In this document: one piece after another, positions 2,598-28,111 of the stretch | Position numbering within the stretch: position 1 is the stretch's first letter | Layout of the letters: every line of letters starts with the position of its first letter | IMG/VR virus record: IMGVR_UViG_3300046747_000375 | Span: 1-28,111 of that record | Reading direction: 5' to 3' (one strand) | DNA length: 28,111 bases | From: a virus | Program-made: the position numbers and the translations under genes | Notes under the pieces: generated by a model | The model's input: only the letters and a program-made list of their open reading frames with translations | Database searches by the model: none | What the model was told of the DNA's origin: nothing

Positions 2598-3860
2598 ATG
2601 GCATTCACTCTCTACGAAGGCGCCAAGATCAGCCGCAACTCGCTGGCCCGAGGCGTCATGCTCGGGATCGCGACCACCAACGAGCTCTTCTCTCGCATCC
2701 AGTTCGTCGAGAAGACGGGCAACGCTTGGGTGTACGACCGCGAGAAGGCGCTGCCCACCGTCGAGTTCGTGGAGCCCACCAGCTTCACCTCGACCGAGTC
2801 GTCGGCGACGTTCGACCAAGTCACCGTGCCGATGCGTCTGATCGACAGCGTCGTGGACATCAACAACACGACCGAGAATCAGAACGACCCGAACGGCAGC
2901 CCCAAGGCGCAGCAAATCGCGTCCAAGCTCAAGGCGCTCGGCCAGACCATCGCCGCGAAGATGTTCACCGGTTCGCACGTGACGAGCTTCACCGTGTCGA
3001 ACGCTGCCCTGACGCCCGGCCTCGCGGTTGACGCCGCGGTCCCGAGCGCGCACACGGAGTCGCTGCGCACCGGTCCCGGCTCGCTGCGCTACACGCACAC
3101 GGGCACGTTCTGGGCGTATCGCGCGCCTGGCGACCGCACGTACGGACCCAACGTCGCCATCGCGGCGGACGGCTCGGCCACGCTGGTCAGCGACAACCCC
3201 AGCAAGAAGCTGACGGTCACCATCGACGTGTCCGATGCGACCGCCGACGGCGAGTGCATGATCTCGTTCGCCACGACCACGAACGAGTTCGACTCGCTCA
3301 ACAAGATGATCACGACCGGTCAGACTGTGTCCTCGACCGGCGCGTCTGGCGATGCGCTCAGCTTCGAGGTCATGGACCGACTCTTCTACGAGAAGGTCAA
3401 GGTCCGCACCGACTGCGCGTACTTCATGAACGGAGCGCTCAAGCGCAAGTTCATGGCCCTCTGCCGCTCGACGTTCGGCGCGGTGGAGAGTGTCGCGCTG
3501 ATGATGCTCGGCGTGGACGGGAAGCCGTTCACGATGAACGTGCCCGTGTGGAACGGCTGCCCGATCTTCCAGGTCGACGACATCCCCTCGAACGAGGTCA
3601 AGACGGCGACCACGCTGTCCAGCGTCTACCTTGCGAGCCTCACGCCCGGCGAAGGCTTCTACTGCGGTGTGCAGCAATCCGCGATGAGCGTGATGGCTGA
3701 CCTCGACCCGTACCGCGCACGCATCGCGGGCGTGAAGATGTACGACATCGGCCAGCGCGAGACGACCGGCGCGGACCGTACGCGCATCGAGTGGTTCGGC
3801 GCATTCGCCCTCGGCAGCGAGCTTGCCGCGGCGCGCGCCTCCGAACTCATCACCGTCTGA
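2598..3860 (+). CDS. Major capsid protein
   Basis: This 420-aa protein forms the head shell. It starts at ATG 2598 with AAGGAAG 10 bases upstream. The length, the position right after a scaffold-like gene and before neck genes, and the composition fit an HK97-fold capsid protein. The N-terminal part has a segment with R-x-x-F-V-E-K-T-G-N-A, typical of the N-arm/E-loop region. The C-terminal half has an axial-domain-like V-W-N-G-C-P-I-F-x-V-D-D-I stretch (about residues 315-327), and residues 375-400 carry I-E-W-F-G-A-F-A. Residues about 145-225 are a beta-rich, Ser/Thr-rich stretch that may be an inserted surface domain. There is no obvious N-terminal cleavable delta domain, in keeping with a separate scaffold. 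Confidence 0.85.
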   Translation: MAFTLYEGAKISRNSLARGVMLGIATTNELFSRIQFVEKTGNAWVYDREKALPTVEFVEPTSFTSTESSATFDQVTVPMRLIDSVVDINNTTENQNDPNGSPKAQQIASKLKALGQTIAAKMFTGSHVTSFTVSNAALTPGLAVDAAVPSAHTESLRTGPGSLRYTHTGTFWAYRAPGDRTYGPNVAIAADGSATLVSDNPSKKLTVTIDVSDATADGECMISFATTTNEFDSLNKMITTGQTVSSTGASGDALSFEVMDRLFYEKVKVRTDCAYFMNGALKRKFMALCRSTFGAVESVALMMLGVDGKPFTMNVPVWNGCPIFQVDDIPSNEVKTATTLSSVYLASLTPGEGFYCGVQQSAMSVMADLDPYRARIAGVKMYDIGQRETTGADRTRIEWFGAFALGSELAAARASELITV

Positions 3861-4436: not shown

Positions 4437-4813
4437 TCGTTGTCGAGTTCGAGGATGCGTTGAGCAACGCGCTGGACCAGCTTCCGGCGCGTATCTCTGC
4501 GCGGTCGCGCGAGGGCCTTGACGCCACGTGCGAAGCCATCGCGGCTCGAGCACGACAGACCACGACCTATCGCGACGTGACCGGGCTGTTGCGCCAAAGC
4601 ACGCAAAACGCTGGCGTTGAGGGCAGCGGCGATGAGCTGGTTGGCATCGTCAGCTTCGCGGCGCGGAGCAAGCAGGGGTTTCTGTACGGCGTAGTTGTGA
4701 ACGCGCGCGGACAGTTCATCGAAGATGCAATCGCTGCGCAAGACGGCGCTCTTCTTGAGGGCTCGCTTGCAAGCGCATTCCGCGATTGCGGATTCTTGGT
4801 GCGCAATGCGTAG
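4433..4813 (+). CDS. HK97 gp10-like neck/tail-completion protein
   Basis: This 126-aa protein starts at GTG 4433, overlapping the previous stop by 4 bases. It begins with an acidic strand and amphipathic helices. Residues about 45-55 contain T-Y-R-D-V-T-G-L-L-R-Q-S, which matches the [P/Y]-x-x-T-G-x-L-x-x-S element characteristic of HK97 gp10-like (minor tail/neck) proteins. The size and the place between capsid and tail genes agree. Such proteins help close the neck or complete the tail. The HNH gene begins 8 bases before this gene's stop. Confidence 0.6.
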   Translation: MIVVEFEDALSNALDQLPARISARSREGLDATCEAIAARARQTTTYRDVTGLLRQSTQNAGVEGSGDELVGIVSFAARSKQGFLYGVVVNARGQFIEDAIAAQDGALLEGSLASAFRDCGFLVRNA

Positions 4814-5378
4814 AGAGCCTCAGTTGACCGAAGCGTGGTGGGATCGTCGGACGACGCCAGAGCCCAACAGCGGCTGTTGGTTGTGGACATGGGGTTGCGA
4901 CCCGGACGGCTACGGCATGACCTATGTCGATGGCAAGCAGGTGCGCGCGCCACGCGCCGCCTATCGGCATTTCAAAGGACAGATCGCAGACGGGATGTTT
5001 GTCTGCCACCACTGCGACAACCCGACCTGCGTAAACCCGGAGCATTTGTTCCTTGGCACAGTCCAGGACAACAGCTCTGACATGGTGGCCAAGGGCAGGC
5101 AGGCGCGCGGTCTGCGCAACGGCGCCTACACCTGCCCCGGCAGCCGGCAACGAGGCGACGCGCACTACTCCCGTAGGCATCCCGAGACTCGGCGCGGTGT
5201 TCTAAATGGCCGCTCTGTCCTCAACGACGAAAAGGTCTCTCAGATCCTTGCGCGTCTTGCACGAGGAGAGGGGTGCGCGGCGCTTGGACGAGAGTACGGC
5301 GTCAGCGAGGTGGCGATAGGCCACATCAAACATCGTCGACAGTGGCGCCATGTGTCTCCCGCAAAGGAGATCTCCTGA
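4806..5378 (+). CDS. HNH homing endonuclease with C-terminal DNA-binding domain
   Basis: This 190-aa protein starts at ATG 4806, overlapping the previous gene by 8 bases. An in-frame ATG at 4725 is less likely because it lies deep in that gene. The core is a textbook HNH_3-type nuclease: A-A-Y-R-H-F (51-56), then C-H-H-C-D-N-P-T-C-V-N-P-E-H-L-F-L-G-T (67-85) and D-M-V-A-K-G-R (92-98). H68 is the likely catalytic His, with N77 and H80 completing the motif. Residues 140-182 (L-N-D-E-K-V-x-x-I-L then G-V-S-x-x-A-I-G-H-I) form a helix-turn-helix used by many homing nucleases for site recognition. Both neighbours look intact, so it is a free-standing mobile gene rather than intron-encoded. It ends in a TGATG coupling with the next gene. 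Confidence 0.92.
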   Translation: MRREPQLTEAWWDRRTTPEPNSGCWLWTWGCDPDGYGMTYVDGKQVRAPRAAYRHFKGQIADGMFVCHHCDNPTCVNPEHLFLGTVQDNSSDMVAKGRQARGLRNGAYTCPGSRQRGDAHYSRRHPETRRGVLNGRSVLNDEKVSQILARLARGEGCAALGREYGVSEVAIGHIKHRRQWRHVSPAKEIS

Positions 5379-7914: not shown

Positions 7915-9417
7915 ATGGCGCTCGCGTCCATCATTGCCAGCGACAACAAGGTCCCTGGAACATACATCAGAACCACGTTCGGAGCGGGCGCGCGCAGTGC
8001 CGCCGACTCCACCAAGCACGTAGTGCTTTTCGGCAACAAGTACGCGACCGGCTCGACCATGACGGTTGAGACCGAGTACGACTGCTACTCGATCGACGAA
8101 GCGCGCGCGCTTGCCGGCAACGGTGGCGAGCTCGCTTGCATGGCAGAGCAGGCGCTGACGGCGAACCCCGGCGCGTCGATCAAGCTCATCGCCGTCACCG
8201 AGTCTGCTGGTACCAAGGCCAACGCTACGGTCATCATTGGCGGCACCACGGCAACCACGGCTGGCACGGTCGAAGTGTCGGTGCGCGGCGAGATCATCGA
8301 GATTGGGTTCGCTGCTGGCGACGCCATCGCGGCCATCGCCACAGCAGTGCGCGACGCCATCAACAACAAGACGTTCTGGCCTGTGGTCGCGTCCGTATCG
8401 ACGGCGACCGTCACGGTGACCGCCAAGAACTTCGGCCCGCGCGGCAATTTCATCAGCCTGCGCACGCGCATCATCGAGAGCGGCACAGGCATCACATCCA
8501 CGGCGTCTGCCACGTACCTCGGCAGCGGCGCCACGAGCGATGACCCTCAGACTGCGCTTGATGTCGAGGCCGCACTACGCCGCACGTTCCTCGCCTGCCC
8601 GTACGCCGACTCGACGCAGATCGCGAAGTTCAAGTCGCACGTGGACGCGCAGGATGAGCCCGAAGTGGGCAACCGCAAGCGCGTCGTGTTCGCCTCGCAC
8701 GACACCATCGCGAACGTCACCACGCTCGCCACTGGCGTCAACTTCCAGCGCGTCGACTGCATCTGGATGCGCAACAGCGACATGACGCCTGCGGAGATCA
8801 GCGCTGGCATCTGCGCATTCCGCGCTGGCCAGGACTCGACACAGCCGCGCTTCAACTACGACGGTGTGCAGATTCCCGGCTTCAAGCCGCACTACAACTC
8901 GGCGGACCGACCGACCAACGCGCAGCTCAAGGCGGCGCTGAACAACGGCATCACGCCGCTGGCAACGGTCGGCGCTGGCGATGTGGCCATCGTCCGTGGC
9001 ATCACGTCGAAGTCGCAGGACTCGAGCGGCAAGCCCGATTACCGCGTGCTCGATTGGCACAAGGTCACCGTCATCGACTACGGCGCTGACATCTTCGAGA
9101 TCGTCTACTCCGACCGCTTCGGCGGATTCGCAGCGAGCGACGACGCCAAGGACGACAAGCTACCGCCCGACCTCGTGTGCACGCCGAAGATGGTCCGCGA
9201 CCTTGTCTTCGAGGTGCTCAACGCGATGGAAGGCAGCGGCTCCGACTCGCTGGGCATCATCGGCGGCTTGCTCGACCTCGGCAGTGTCGAGCGCAACGCC
9301 GCGCAGGTAATCGTCGAGCTCAGCAAGATTTCGCAGGGCCGATTCAACATCTCTTCACCGGTGGACGTCATCGAACTGGCTCATCAGTTCGCACACGACA
9401 TCCGCCAGGTGGGCTGA
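7915..9417 (+). CDS. Contractile tail sheath protein
   Basis: This 500-aa protein has a near-perfect ribosome site AAGGAGG (7901-7907) 7 bases before ATG 7915, as expected for an abundant virion protein. It has Mu gpL-like features: an N-terminal I-P-x-x-R-x-P-like region (V-P-G-T-Y-I-R-T), a Thr/Ser/Val-rich variable domain (about 95-205), and the conserved core with R-x-V-F-A-S (about 260). The C-terminal part has D-W-H-K-V-T-V-I-D-Y (about 380), D-x-x-F-E-I-V-Y-S-D-R and a final segment for handshake strands. It polymerises around the tube and contracts on infection. The tube gene follows directly. Confidence 0.88.
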   Translation: MALASIIASDNKVPGTYIRTTFGAGARSAADSTKHVVLFGNKYATGSTMTVETEYDCYSIDEARALAGNGGELACMAEQALTANPGASIKLIAVTESAGTKANATVIIGGTTATTAGTVEVSVRGEIIEIGFAAGDAIAAIATAVRDAINNKTFWPVVASVSTATVTVTAKNFGPRGNFISLRTRIIESGTGITSTASATYLGSGATSDDPQTALDVEAALRRTFLACPYADSTQIAKFKSHVDAQDEPEVGNRKRVVFASHDTIANVTTLATGVNFQRVDCIWMRNSDMTPAEISAGICAFRAGQDSTQPRFNYDGVQIPGFKPHYNSADRPTNAQLKAALNNGITPLATVGAGDVAIVRGITSKSQDSSGKPDYRVLDWHKVTVIDYGADIFEIVYSDRFGGFAASDDAKDDKLPPDLVCTPKMVRDLVFEVLNAMEGSGSDSLGIIGGLLDLGSVERNAAQVIVELSKISQGRFNISSPVDVIELAHQFAHDIRQVG

Positions 9418-25792: not shown

Positions 25793-26269
25793 ATGTGGAA
25801 GTGGCTGATGCTGCTGGTGGTGACTTCTGGCTGTGCGCACATCGCGCACGCGCCTGTCGTTGCAACAGCGCCAATGGTCGAAGCGCGCGCCTGCTACCGC
25901 TCGTTCTCCGCATCTCTCGCAGCCTTCGAGCAGCGCCTAGGCCGCGTCGGCTACGCGTGTCAGTTCCTCGACTCGCAATACACCGTGCAGCTCGCCAGTC
26001 TCGCGGAGATTCCGTGCATGGCAGCGAGCGGCGCCGAGCGCGTACACGGCTGCACGACGCCTGTTGACCGCACCATCTACGTGCTCGCGGGCCGCGACCA
26101 GATAGCCACGCGCGACACGAGCGTGCACGAGTGGCTGCACACGCTTCTGGACTGCGTCTATCACGACGCTGACCGCGAGCACGTGCGTGCCGAGATCTGG
26201 GAAGGCTACGGCGCCAACACCGCTGAAGTTCAAGCGCAGGCCGCAGCGCCTGCAGGAGCATGTCTATGA
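25793..26269 (+). CDS. Lipoprotein with zinc-metallopeptidase motif (HEWLH)
   Basis: This 158-aa protein starts at ATG 25793 with GAGG (25782-25785) 7 bases upstream. Residues 1-14 form a short lipoprotein signal: Lys at 3, a hydrophobic core and T-S-G-C at 11-14. T at the -3 site is tolerated but not ideal. After a linker the mature part contains H-E-W-L-H at 112-116, the HExxH zinc/catalytic motif of zincins, preceded by a strand (R-T-I-Y-V-L). Candidate third ligands are H124, D126, H130 or E134. Cys 34, 56, 75, 87, 121 and 157 could form disulfides in the periplasm. A role in lysis or envelope remodelling is possible. The motif is seen directly; activity is inferred. Confidence 0.62.
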   Translation: MWKWLMLLVVTSGCAHIAHAPVVATAPMVEARACYRSFSASLAAFEQRLGRVGYACQFLDSQYTVQLASLAEIPCMAASGAERVHGCTTPVDRTIYVLAGRDQIATRDTSVHEWLHTLLDCVYHDADREHVRAEIWEGYGANTAEVQAQAAAPAGACL

Positions 26270-26649
26270 GGTACATCGTCATAGCACTCACGCTTATGCT
26301 CTCGGCATGCGCAGGCACCGCGCAGCTAGAAGAGCGCACGCGCACAGCGCTCGAGGCCACGAACGCGGCTATCGACCCGGCATACGCCGCTGCGACTGAA
26401 GGCTGCATCGTCCGCGTGCAGGCCATCGAGCGTGCGTACGACCAAGGCTTCAAGCCGGCCTACGACGCGGCGAACGAACTGGAGTCGGTGCACAAGCAGT
26501 GCAACAAGACGCGCTCCGTATTCGCGACCATTCGCACGCTCTACAACGAGGCCGTGAAGCTCTACAACGATGGGCGTTTCGCTGAGGCGCTCGCCGCCTA
26601 TGCTGACATCACGCGAGCGTGGGCTTCGCTGAATGGCGGTACCAAGTGA
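26266..26649 (+). CDS. Small phage lipoprotein of unknown function
   Basis: I choose ATG 26266 (ATGA overlap with the previous stop) over ATG 26260; the protein is 127 aa. It has Arg at 2, a hydrophobic core and a clear lipobox L-S-A-C at 12-15, so it is probably an outer- or inner-membrane lipoprotein in a Gram-negative host. The mature part is helical and contains F-A-E-A-L-A-A-Y-A-D-I, like a tetratricopeptide-type helix. It is not Pro-rich like classical Rz1 outer spanins. An outer spanin, another envelope role or superinfection exclusion are all possible. Confidence 0.65.
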   Translation: MRYIVIALTLMLSACAGTAQLEERTRTALEATNAAIDPAYAAATEGCIVRVQAIERAYDQGFKPAYDAANELESVHKQCNKTRSVFATIRTLYNEAVKLYNDGRFAEALAAYADITRAWASLNGGTK

Positions 26650-26855
26650 ACCGTCAAGCGGCCGACATCGTCGCCAGCATGCTGCCCGCGCTGTTCAAGC
26701 TGGGCGCTGACCTGCTCGCTAAGCACAACGGCGACGAGCACGCAGCACGCTCGGAGCTGCAAGACATGGTCGACCACGGCGCTCGCTACCTCGAAGAGCA
26801 CAACCGCATCAAGGCGAAGATCGACGCGGCTGTTGCGGCGGAGAAGAAGCCGTGA
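26646..26855 (+). CDS. Small helical protein in the lysis-side gene cluster
   Basis: This 69-aa protein starts at GTG 26646 within the previous stop (GTGA). A longer in-frame ATG at 26619 lies inside the lipoprotein gene and is less likely. Residues 7-27 (D-I-V-A-S-M-L-P-A-L-F-K-L-G-A-D-L-L) are amphipathic to hydrophobic, and the rest is charged with a Lys-rich tail. It is too weakly hydrophobic to call a holin. The function is unknown. Confidence 0.5.
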   Translation: MNRQAADIVASMLPALFKLGADLLAKHNGDEHAARSELQDMVDHGARYLEEHNRIKAKIDAAVAAEKKP

Positions 26856-26989
26856 CCTGGAAGCAGCGAGCAATCTTGGCGCTGGCTGGCTGGCGCGTGG
26901 TGGTGTCGCTAGTACGCGGCGCGTACCAGGCGCATCGCCTCGACAAGATCGCCAAGCATGAGCGCGACAAGCATCGAGGTGCGCGGTGA
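26852..26989 (+). CDS. 45-aa putative single-pass membrane protein
   Basis: A 45-codon frame starts at GTG 26852 inside the previous stop and ends at TGA 26987-26989, which overlaps the next GTG start. Residues about 7-22 (A-I-L-A-L-A-G-W-R-V-V-V-S-L-V-R) form a hydrophobic segment interrupted by Arg at 15. The C-terminal half is strongly basic (K-H-E-R-D-K-H-R-G-A-R). Coupling on both sides and the lack of any other frame filling the interval support a real gene. A small membrane protein near an endolysin may be a holin, an inner spanin or a regulator; none can be chosen. Confidence 0.45.
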   Translation: MTWKQRAILALAGWRVVVSLVRGAYQAHRLDKIAKHERDKHRGAR

Positions 26990-27279
26990 GCGAGCCTCAG
27001 CGAGCGGCCGACCCCGACTACCGCGCGGCCTCGCTGGCGATGTGGTGCGGCAATGCCATCGCATTCGCGCTGAAGGCCGGCGCTGACCGCGAGTCGTTCG
27101 AGCGCTGGCGGATGCTGTTCGACGCCGTGTTCCAGGCGATATCGATTCGCGGCGCTCGCTTCGGCGAAGTCATCGAAGCGGTCCGCAAGGTGCGTGAACA
27201 CGGCTCGATTCTCGATGACCTGCCAGTTGCAGGAGAAGATACGCGACGCACCAGGCCGCCGACGAGGCCGGGCGGCTGA
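26986..27279 (+). CDS. Hypothetical small helical protein
   Basis: This 97-aa protein starts at GTG 26986 (GTGA coupling). It looks mainly helical, with W-C-G-N-A-I-A-F-A-L-K-A-G-A and E-R-W-R-M-L-F-D-A-V-F-Q-A-I segments, and ends in a basic, Pro-rich tail (R-T-R-P-P-T-R-P-G-G). No motif is recognised. It sits between the membrane protein and the endolysin. A 49-base gap separates it from the next gene. Confidence 0.45.
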   Translation: MSEPQRAADPDYRAASLAMWCGNAIAFALKAGADRESFERWRMLFDAVFQAISIRGARFGEVIEAVRKVREHGSILDDLPVAGEDTRRTRPPTRPGG

Positions 27280-27328
27280 CCATGCTCGTTCAACTGCCTC
27301 GCAGATTGCGAAGGCTCCGGAGATTGAG

Positions 27329-27511
27329 ATGTTTGACCCTGCAGAAAAAGCGCTTGAGTACACCGGCCGCAGCGGATGGTCAGTCGACCCAGACGACGGC
27401 TCGAATACGGCGTGCCTCGTGATGGGCGAAGCGATGGTCGCTGTTGAGTACGAGTGCCGCGCTGGAGACGCCGGGCGCGCTTCGTACATCGAGGAGCTGC
27501 GCCGTGGATGA
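27329..27511 (+). CDS. Small hypothetical protein
   Basis: I choose ATG 27329 (60 aa) because GGAGA (27319-27323) lies at good spacing. An in-frame GTG at 27194 would add 45 residues that overlap the previous gene and have a shadow-like composition. The protein begins M-F-D-P-A-E-K-A-L-E and contains V-D-P-D-D-G-S-N-T-A. No family is recognised. The next gene starts before its stop. Confidence 0.4.
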   Translation: MFDPAEKALEYTGRSGWSVDPDDGSNTACLVMGEAMVAVEYECRAGDAGRASYIEELRRG

Positions 27512-27674
27512 TGAGGCCAAGCGCATCTACACGCGCGTAGCGGACGTGATCGTCAAGATGACCGCCGCCGCCAACAAGCTGACGCTCGCCGTGGACGAGC
27601 TGACCAGCGCGGTCACCACGCTCACTGGCAGCGTCGCGCACCGAGAGAGGCAGGACAATGAAGCCGGAAAGTGA
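27504..27674 (+). CDS. Small coiled-coil-like protein before the endolysin
   Basis: This 56-aa protein starts at GTG 27504 with GAGGAG (27491-27496) 7 bases upstream. The frame extends to 27444 but that part lies in the previous gene. Residues 10-45 are a regular amphipathic helix (V-A-D-V-I-V-K-M-T-A-A-A-N-K-L-T, V-D-E-L-T-S-A-V-T-T-L-T-G), probably a coiled coil. It lacks a membrane segment. The endolysin starts 17 bases before its end. Confidence 0.45.
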   Translation: MDDEAKRIYTRVADVIVKMTAAANKLTLAVDELTSAVTTLTGSVAHRERQDNEAGK

Positions 27675-28111
27675 CATCAACCTGCTTGTTCCTGCCTTTC
27701 GCGAGAAGCTCGAGGCGACACTGAAGGCGCTCGTTTGGCAAGGCTACAAGCCGCACGTGCACGAGACACTGCGCTCGCCAGAGCGGTCTGCGATGCTCGT
27801 GGCAAAGGGCGCCAGCAAGGCTATCCCTGGCAAGTCTCTTCACTGCTATGGCTGCGCTGCCGACGTGATTTGCGGCGAGCACGGCTACCAGTGCGCGCGC
27901 AACCACTGCAAGTTCTACGACGCGTTGCGCGCTTGCGGAGAAGACAACGGGCTGACAAGCGGCTCCAACTGGGACGGCGACGACAAGCCGCTCGAGCAGG
28001 GTGAAAACGACCTCGTTCATCTGCAGGCTGTGCCGGCAACACCGCGCATGCAGGACAAGATCAGGGCGATGGCGCCTGAGCACGTCGACACGTTCCTGCG
28101 CAGCTACTACG
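27658..28111 (+). CDS. M15-family peptidoglycan peptidase (endolysin), 3' end outside the window
   Basis: The frame opens at ATG 27658 (site GAGAGAGGCAGGA just upstream) and remains open for 151 codons to the window end. It has the M15 (VanY/L-Ala-D-Glu endopeptidase) signature: E-T-L-R-S-P-E-R-S (36-44), S-L-H-C-Y-G-C-A-A-D (60-69, the S-x-H-x-x-G-x-A-x-D motif) and D-L-V-H-L-Q (118-123). H62, D69 and H121 are the predicted zinc ligands, D118 the likely acid/base. It would cleave peptide stems of peptidoglycan at lysis. There is no signal peptide, so release would need a holin. Unusually, six Cys lie between residues 63 and 93. The missing end may hold further sequence. Confidence 0.85.
   Translation, partial: MKPESDINLLVPAFREKLEATLKALVWQGYKPHVHETLRSPERSAMLVAKGASKAIPGKSLHCYGCAADVICGEHGYQCARNHCKFYDALRACGEDNGLTSGSNWDGDDKPLEQGENDLVHLQAVPATPRMQDKIRAMAPEHVDTFLRSYY

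Follow-up and report, generated by a model that had tools for sequence, protein, structure and literature searches.

The gene at positions 25793 to 26269 (+ strand) is best read, with moderate confidence, as encoding a zinc metallopeptidase with a lipid anchor; it would belong to the zincin superfamily, is probably a late gene, and its product comes nearest to a diverged phage form of the SprT-like domain. Its zinc binding, proteolytic activity, lipidation, location and timing are properties that we infer. The HExxH lipoprotein of this phage is genuine and mildly unusual. An earlier note on this DNA had considered a lipoprotein with this motif unusual among tail and lysis genes; a lipid-anchored protein of zincin type is indeed the best reading, but it is not unique, as phage HEWxH lipoproteins recur in IMG/VR.

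The window, i.e. the whole stretch of DNA that was analyzed, corresponds to the entire virus record IMGVR_UViG_3300046747_000375, comprises 28,111 bases and is probably a fragment. The open reading frame encodes 158 amino acids; it starts with the ATG at 25793, 9 bases past the preceding stop and with a GAGG upstream, and it finishes with the TGA that ends at 26269. Its GC3 (0.75) is similar to that of its neighbours and the base composition by codon position matches that of the adjoining genes, as would be expected of a real gene. The protein begins with MWKWLMLLVVTSGC-AHIAH and also contains TSVHEWLHTLLDC. The putative lipoprotein signal peptide (25793-25834, + strand; MWKWLMLLVVTSGC14-A15) fits a lipoprotein pattern of the PS51257 form and ends in the lipobox VTSG-C, in which the Thr at -3 is non-canonical and C14 is the putative lipidated cysteine. 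Lipoproteins with Ala at +2 may be sorted to the outer membrane, and by this usual rule A15 would permit outer-membrane sorting of the HExxH lipoprotein. Six more cysteines follow C14, at residues 34, 56, 75, 87, 121 and 157.

The peptide HEWLH (residues 112-116; 26126-26140, + strand) would provide two putative zinc ligands and the catalytic Glu113, and H112, E113 and H116 are invariant with the SprT-like branch described below in an alignment that we refer to as A5. It is the sole HExxH among the six-frame open reading frames of at least 60 amino acids in the window, and its flanks match a PS00142-like pattern. When the mature protein was shuffled, an HExxH appeared in 1.8% of the sequences and a PS00142-like match in 0.2%. 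The earlier description of a short lipoprotein signal and of HEWLH at these residues was thereby confirmed, on basis of the reading frame, the lipobox pattern and the PS00142-like setting, and the protein is assigned as a putative lipoprotein with a zincin-type HExxH. A metzincin identity was considered and rejected: the HExxHxxGxxH/D signature does not fit HEWLHTLLDCV, which has neither the Gly nor a His or Asp at the required positions.

The arrangement of a HEWxH motif within a phage lipoprotein was found repeatedly. Prompted by the motif layout of SprT-like proteins, we defined a branch pattern consisting of HEWxHxL followed by DHGxxW, which identified 13 IMG/VR loci; an alignment-based extension of the SprT-like pattern search yielded 79. 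The phage branch as extracted has 62 IMG/VR members, which form 45 clusters at 60% identity and carry the signature HEWAHAL...DHGPxWG or HEWAHAL...DHGPxWGVAYA. The family model PF10263 was matched at E <= 1 by all ten seed members (10/10, the best at 4.1e-7), several of which, lipoproteins included, remain below the curated cut-off. At least 8 of the 45 clusters start with a lipoprotein signal according to a strict pattern, and therefore the phage HEWxH lipoprotein constitutes a recurring arrangement. This lipoprotein form of the phage SprT-like class seems to be undescribed in the open-access literature that was searched, as the papers found there do not describe a class of lipid-anchored phage SprT-like proteins. 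With respect to location, SprT-like lipoprotein genes adjoin the terminase in the packaging region of several diverged phages. More specifically, a PHROGs comparison placed a gene for the terminase large subunit directly upstream of six of them (L025, L026, L028, L032, L035 and L039), which were chosen because the upstream gene resembled terminase.

A direct comparison indicated that the sequence likeness of the window protein to this branch is weak outside the HEWLH stretch. The protein has no match to PF10263 at E <= 1 and, in a search with family models, no annotated family claims it. Nevertheless, several elements correspond. Downstream of the HExxH the window protein has a third His, so that H112 and H116 are joined by H130 (26180-26182, + strand), whose role in zinc binding is putative. 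The 13 residues that separate H130 from H116 represent the modal spacing of the branch (29 of the 62 members), which makes H130 the preferred third ligand, and in the MAFFT alignment A5 it falls in the invariant third-His column. The smaller alignment A2 picks His124 (26162-26164, + strand) as the putative third ligand instead, with 7 residues between it and H116; every family member counted has more. The order of the elements is also common to the window protein and the branch: a lipobox, a helix, a strand, a second strand (IYVL), the HEWLH helix and a further helix. An HMM of the branch gave the window protein 12.6 bits, a score higher than that of every plain shuffle and equalled or exceeded by 17 of 2000 shuffles that kept the motif (~0.9%). 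Alignment to the branch with hhalign resulted in a probability of 73%, which 10 of 400 motif-keeping shuffles equalled or exceeded (2.5%). The DHGPxWG-type block around the third His is absent from the window protein, which has REHVRAEIWEGYG instead. Considering the weak shuffle margins, the absence of DHGPxWG and the lack of a PF10263 match, we take the window protein to resemble a SprT-like member but do not file it as one.

AlphaFold without an alignment produced a poor model (pLDDT 43), which gave no relevant match in structure searches. The AlphaFold (AF2) model based on alignment A5 reached a pLDDT of 68 overall and about 80 in its core. It has strands at residues 64-68 and 94-98 and helices at 103-122, which includes HEWLH, and 125-150; since A5 presupposes SprT-like kinship, this model depends on that assumption. 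A Foldseek search with the A5 model against the PDB returned no match at E < 2, and the zincin entries came from a second look only. In that second look the PDB matches were led by proteins of HExxH type, namely YbeY (1oz9, Z 7.8, rmsd 3.8, 117 aligned), Wss1 (5xbv, Z 6.7, rmsd 3.9, 111 aligned) and selecase (4qhj, Z 5.6, rmsd 4.0, 91 aligned), but unrelated arrangements commonly give Z values below 8 as well. IrrE- and PPEP-type chains were also among the structural matches, and the top match in BFVD was the Peptidase of Bacillus phage Finn (prob 1.00, E 0.015). Given the low Z values, the Foldseek result against the PDB and the kinship assumed in A5, the model is consistent with a zincin fold but does not prove it.

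The presence of selecase, IrrE and PPEP-type chains among the structural matches would also suit an envelope zincin of non-SprT type (IrrE/M78-like or a minigluzincin), in which a Glu (E129, E134 or E137) and not H130 would act as third ligand. In line with this reading, which we consider unlikely, L065, a lipoprotein member of the branch, matches M78 only, and weakly, and the phage HECLH protein L309 can be aligned to the window protein without gaps over 42 residues with 33% identity. However, the likeness of L309 is limited to the strand and the HExxH helix, and H130 is found at the commonest SprT-like spacing. It is likewise improbable, in our estimate, that HEWLH is a chance match within a non-enzymatic Cys-rich envelope lipoprotein. 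The frequency of HExxH in the shuffles should be considered together with the many proteins that were read at the first stage, and neither a homologue that shows conservation of the motif nor a family match was found for the window protein; yet the PS00142 setting, the zincin-like order of the elements and the spacing of H130 all fit a peptidase, and phage HEWxH lipoproteins exist independently of this one.

Searches for relatives of the protein gave little. No close relatives were detected by tblastn among phages or plasmids, and searches of IMG/VR and GTDB contigs with peptide patterns gave none either; the matches to the pattern VHEWLHx[LF] in IMG/VR and GTDB were rejected as chance matches and unrelated zinc peptidases. 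A search of 398 genomes from one phylum provided a single match (E 7e-4), which ends before HEWLH and is at about chance level over 398 genomes. Weak PHROG profile matches were obtained over residues 60-119, HEWLH included, to phrog_37197 (E 0.019) and phrog_13742 (E 0.16), neither of them significant, and phrog_37197 found nothing in the same 398 genomes in a search without positive control. A sequence search of the PDB with the 158-residue protein yielded nothing relevant. Kin of the phage itself were not found via its baseplate protein and reached about 33% identity at best via its capsid protein; 34 of the capsid-related records contain no counterpart of the HExxH gene except for the weak L309.

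The window encodes a contractile tail, with a sheath (phrog_165) and baseplate and hub proteins, and its capsid protein is similar to those of epsilon15 and the Mesyanzhinovviridae. The phage appears as a mosaic in which a capsid gene (2598-3860) that is Mesyanzhinovviridae/Pamexvirus-like at about 30% identity is combined with a Mu-like contractile tail sheath (7915-9417), and the phage collection contains no close kin of it. An HNH endonuclease gene, possibly that of a homing endonuclease, is located among the head and tail genes (4725-5378; phrog_1872, E 1.8e-30). Ahead of the head genes, on the - strand, lies a helix-turn-helix gene of Cro/CI type (1207-1500; HTH_3, E 1.7e-9, and a sub-threshold YdaS match), the sequence of which hints at a temperate phage.

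The tail genes are followed by unmatched open reading frames, the HExxH lipoprotein, a second putative lipoprotein, several small open reading frames and an endolysin-like gene. The adhesin genes that the earlier note had placed before the HExxH gene were not confirmed, as the small upstream reading frames have no Pfam match and no significant PHROG match, but an endolysin-like gene is present downstream. This gene (27658-28110, + strand) is cut by the contig end; it matches phrog_465 (E 3.9e-6) and no Pfam family, and inspection by eye suggests an M15-like product, with SLHCYGCAAD followed further on by DLVH. The second putative lipoprotein (26260-26649, + strand, with its start at 26260 or 26266) overlaps the stop of the HExxH gene, and its assignment is based on the reading frame, the LSAC lipobox and the codon composition. 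It shows a weak, sub-threshold match to the Exc2 family of entry-exclusion lipoproteins (E 0.003) and could be a partner or a substrate of the HExxH protein.

For the favoured lipid-anchored peptidase the following route can be proposed. After export via Sec, Cys14 would be lipidated and the protein would be anchored in an envelope membrane, the outer one by the +2 rule, with the peptidase domain in the periplasm, where its cysteines may form disulphide pairs. H112, H116 and probably H130 would bind the zinc and E113 would serve as general base, and the enzyme would then cleave an envelope protein. A role in lysis is possible and fits the position of the gene. Aid in the breakdown of the envelope, alongside the adjacent lipoprotein and the endolysin-like gene, is tentatively the single likeliest task, slightly ahead of the blocking of superinfection or a modification of the surface. 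Such a role gains no support from the SprT-like phage lipoproteins for which the upstream genes were scanned, which adjoin terminase and not a lysis cassette.

Alternatively, the protein could be a lipoprotein of superinfection exclusion or lysogenic conversion, i.e. an anchored protein, acting as a peptidase or by binding, through which a surface receptor would be altered or blocked once the cell is infected. Functions of this kind are known from small phage lipoproteins, and the weak Exc2 match of the neighbour and the hint of a temperate lifestyle given by the helix-turn-helix gene agree with such a function, whereas no receptor, relatives or integrase-type gene were identified on the fragment; this reading is somewhat doubtful by itself, yet nearly as probable as a role in lysis. 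A substitute for spanins, in which the protease would sever the links between outer membrane and peptidoglycan in the final step of lysis, was suggested earlier and is very unlikely, having gained no specific support. The gene does lie between the tail genes and the endolysin-like gene, beside a second lipoprotein, and the scanned reading frames of 25793-27674 have no significant spanin match in PHROGs; but spanins, being short and diverse, readily escape such a search and may also lie past the end of the contig, which cuts the endolysin-like gene, and those SprT-like lipoproteins of other phages that were examined are found outside recognised lysis cassettes. The boldest generalization, that phages use envelope-anchored SprT-like proteases as envelope effectors, which here together with the neighbouring lipoprotein would replace spanins in the outer-membrane step of lysis, is a conjecture to which we attach very little probability.

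As far as is known, those SprT-like proteins whose function has been studied work within the cell. If the recurrent lipid-anchored phage form is true, phages would have relocated the SprT-like peptidase fold to the envelope; cleavage of envelope proteins there could take place in the course of lysis, exclusion or entry. The window protein and the at least 8 lipoprotein clusters together form a set of proteins on which this can be tested.

A comparison with known systems puts the phage branch of the SprT-like family PF10263 closest. The window protein shares with it the HEW-x-H motif, the succession of helix, strand, strand, HExxH helix and helix, the third His after 13 residues, the small size and, for some members, the lipoprotein nature; it differs in having neither a PF10263 match nor GPxWG, in having HEWLH and not HEWAH, and in being Cys-rich. 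The likeness to phrog_37197, of unknown function, and to phrog_13742, a peptidase, is weak and extends across the same residues 60-119. Wss1 and YbeY have a core similar to that of the A5 model, but they are not envelope lipoproteins, the identity is about 10% and the Z values are too low to prove kinship. A functional parallel is found in Listeria, where in the phage-derived Mtz-Tim system the lipoprotein encoded next to an exported HExxH protease is the target of that protease, and expression makes the cells more sensitive to phage lysis (PMC8235301). Both cases involve a phage-borne, exported HExxH protease (in Listeria the metzincin Mtz, here the putative peptidase) that is encoded beside a lipoprotein (in Listeria Tim). 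Unlike the window protein, Mtz is secreted and has no lipid anchor; it is a metzincin (HExxHxxGxxH/D) and belongs to a Gram-positive host (PMC8235301). The window encodes two putative lipoproteins, and its HExxH is of another type. Considering this parallel and the adjacent second lipoprotein gene, a pairing of protease and partner between the HExxH gene and its neighbour is a reasonable hypothesis.
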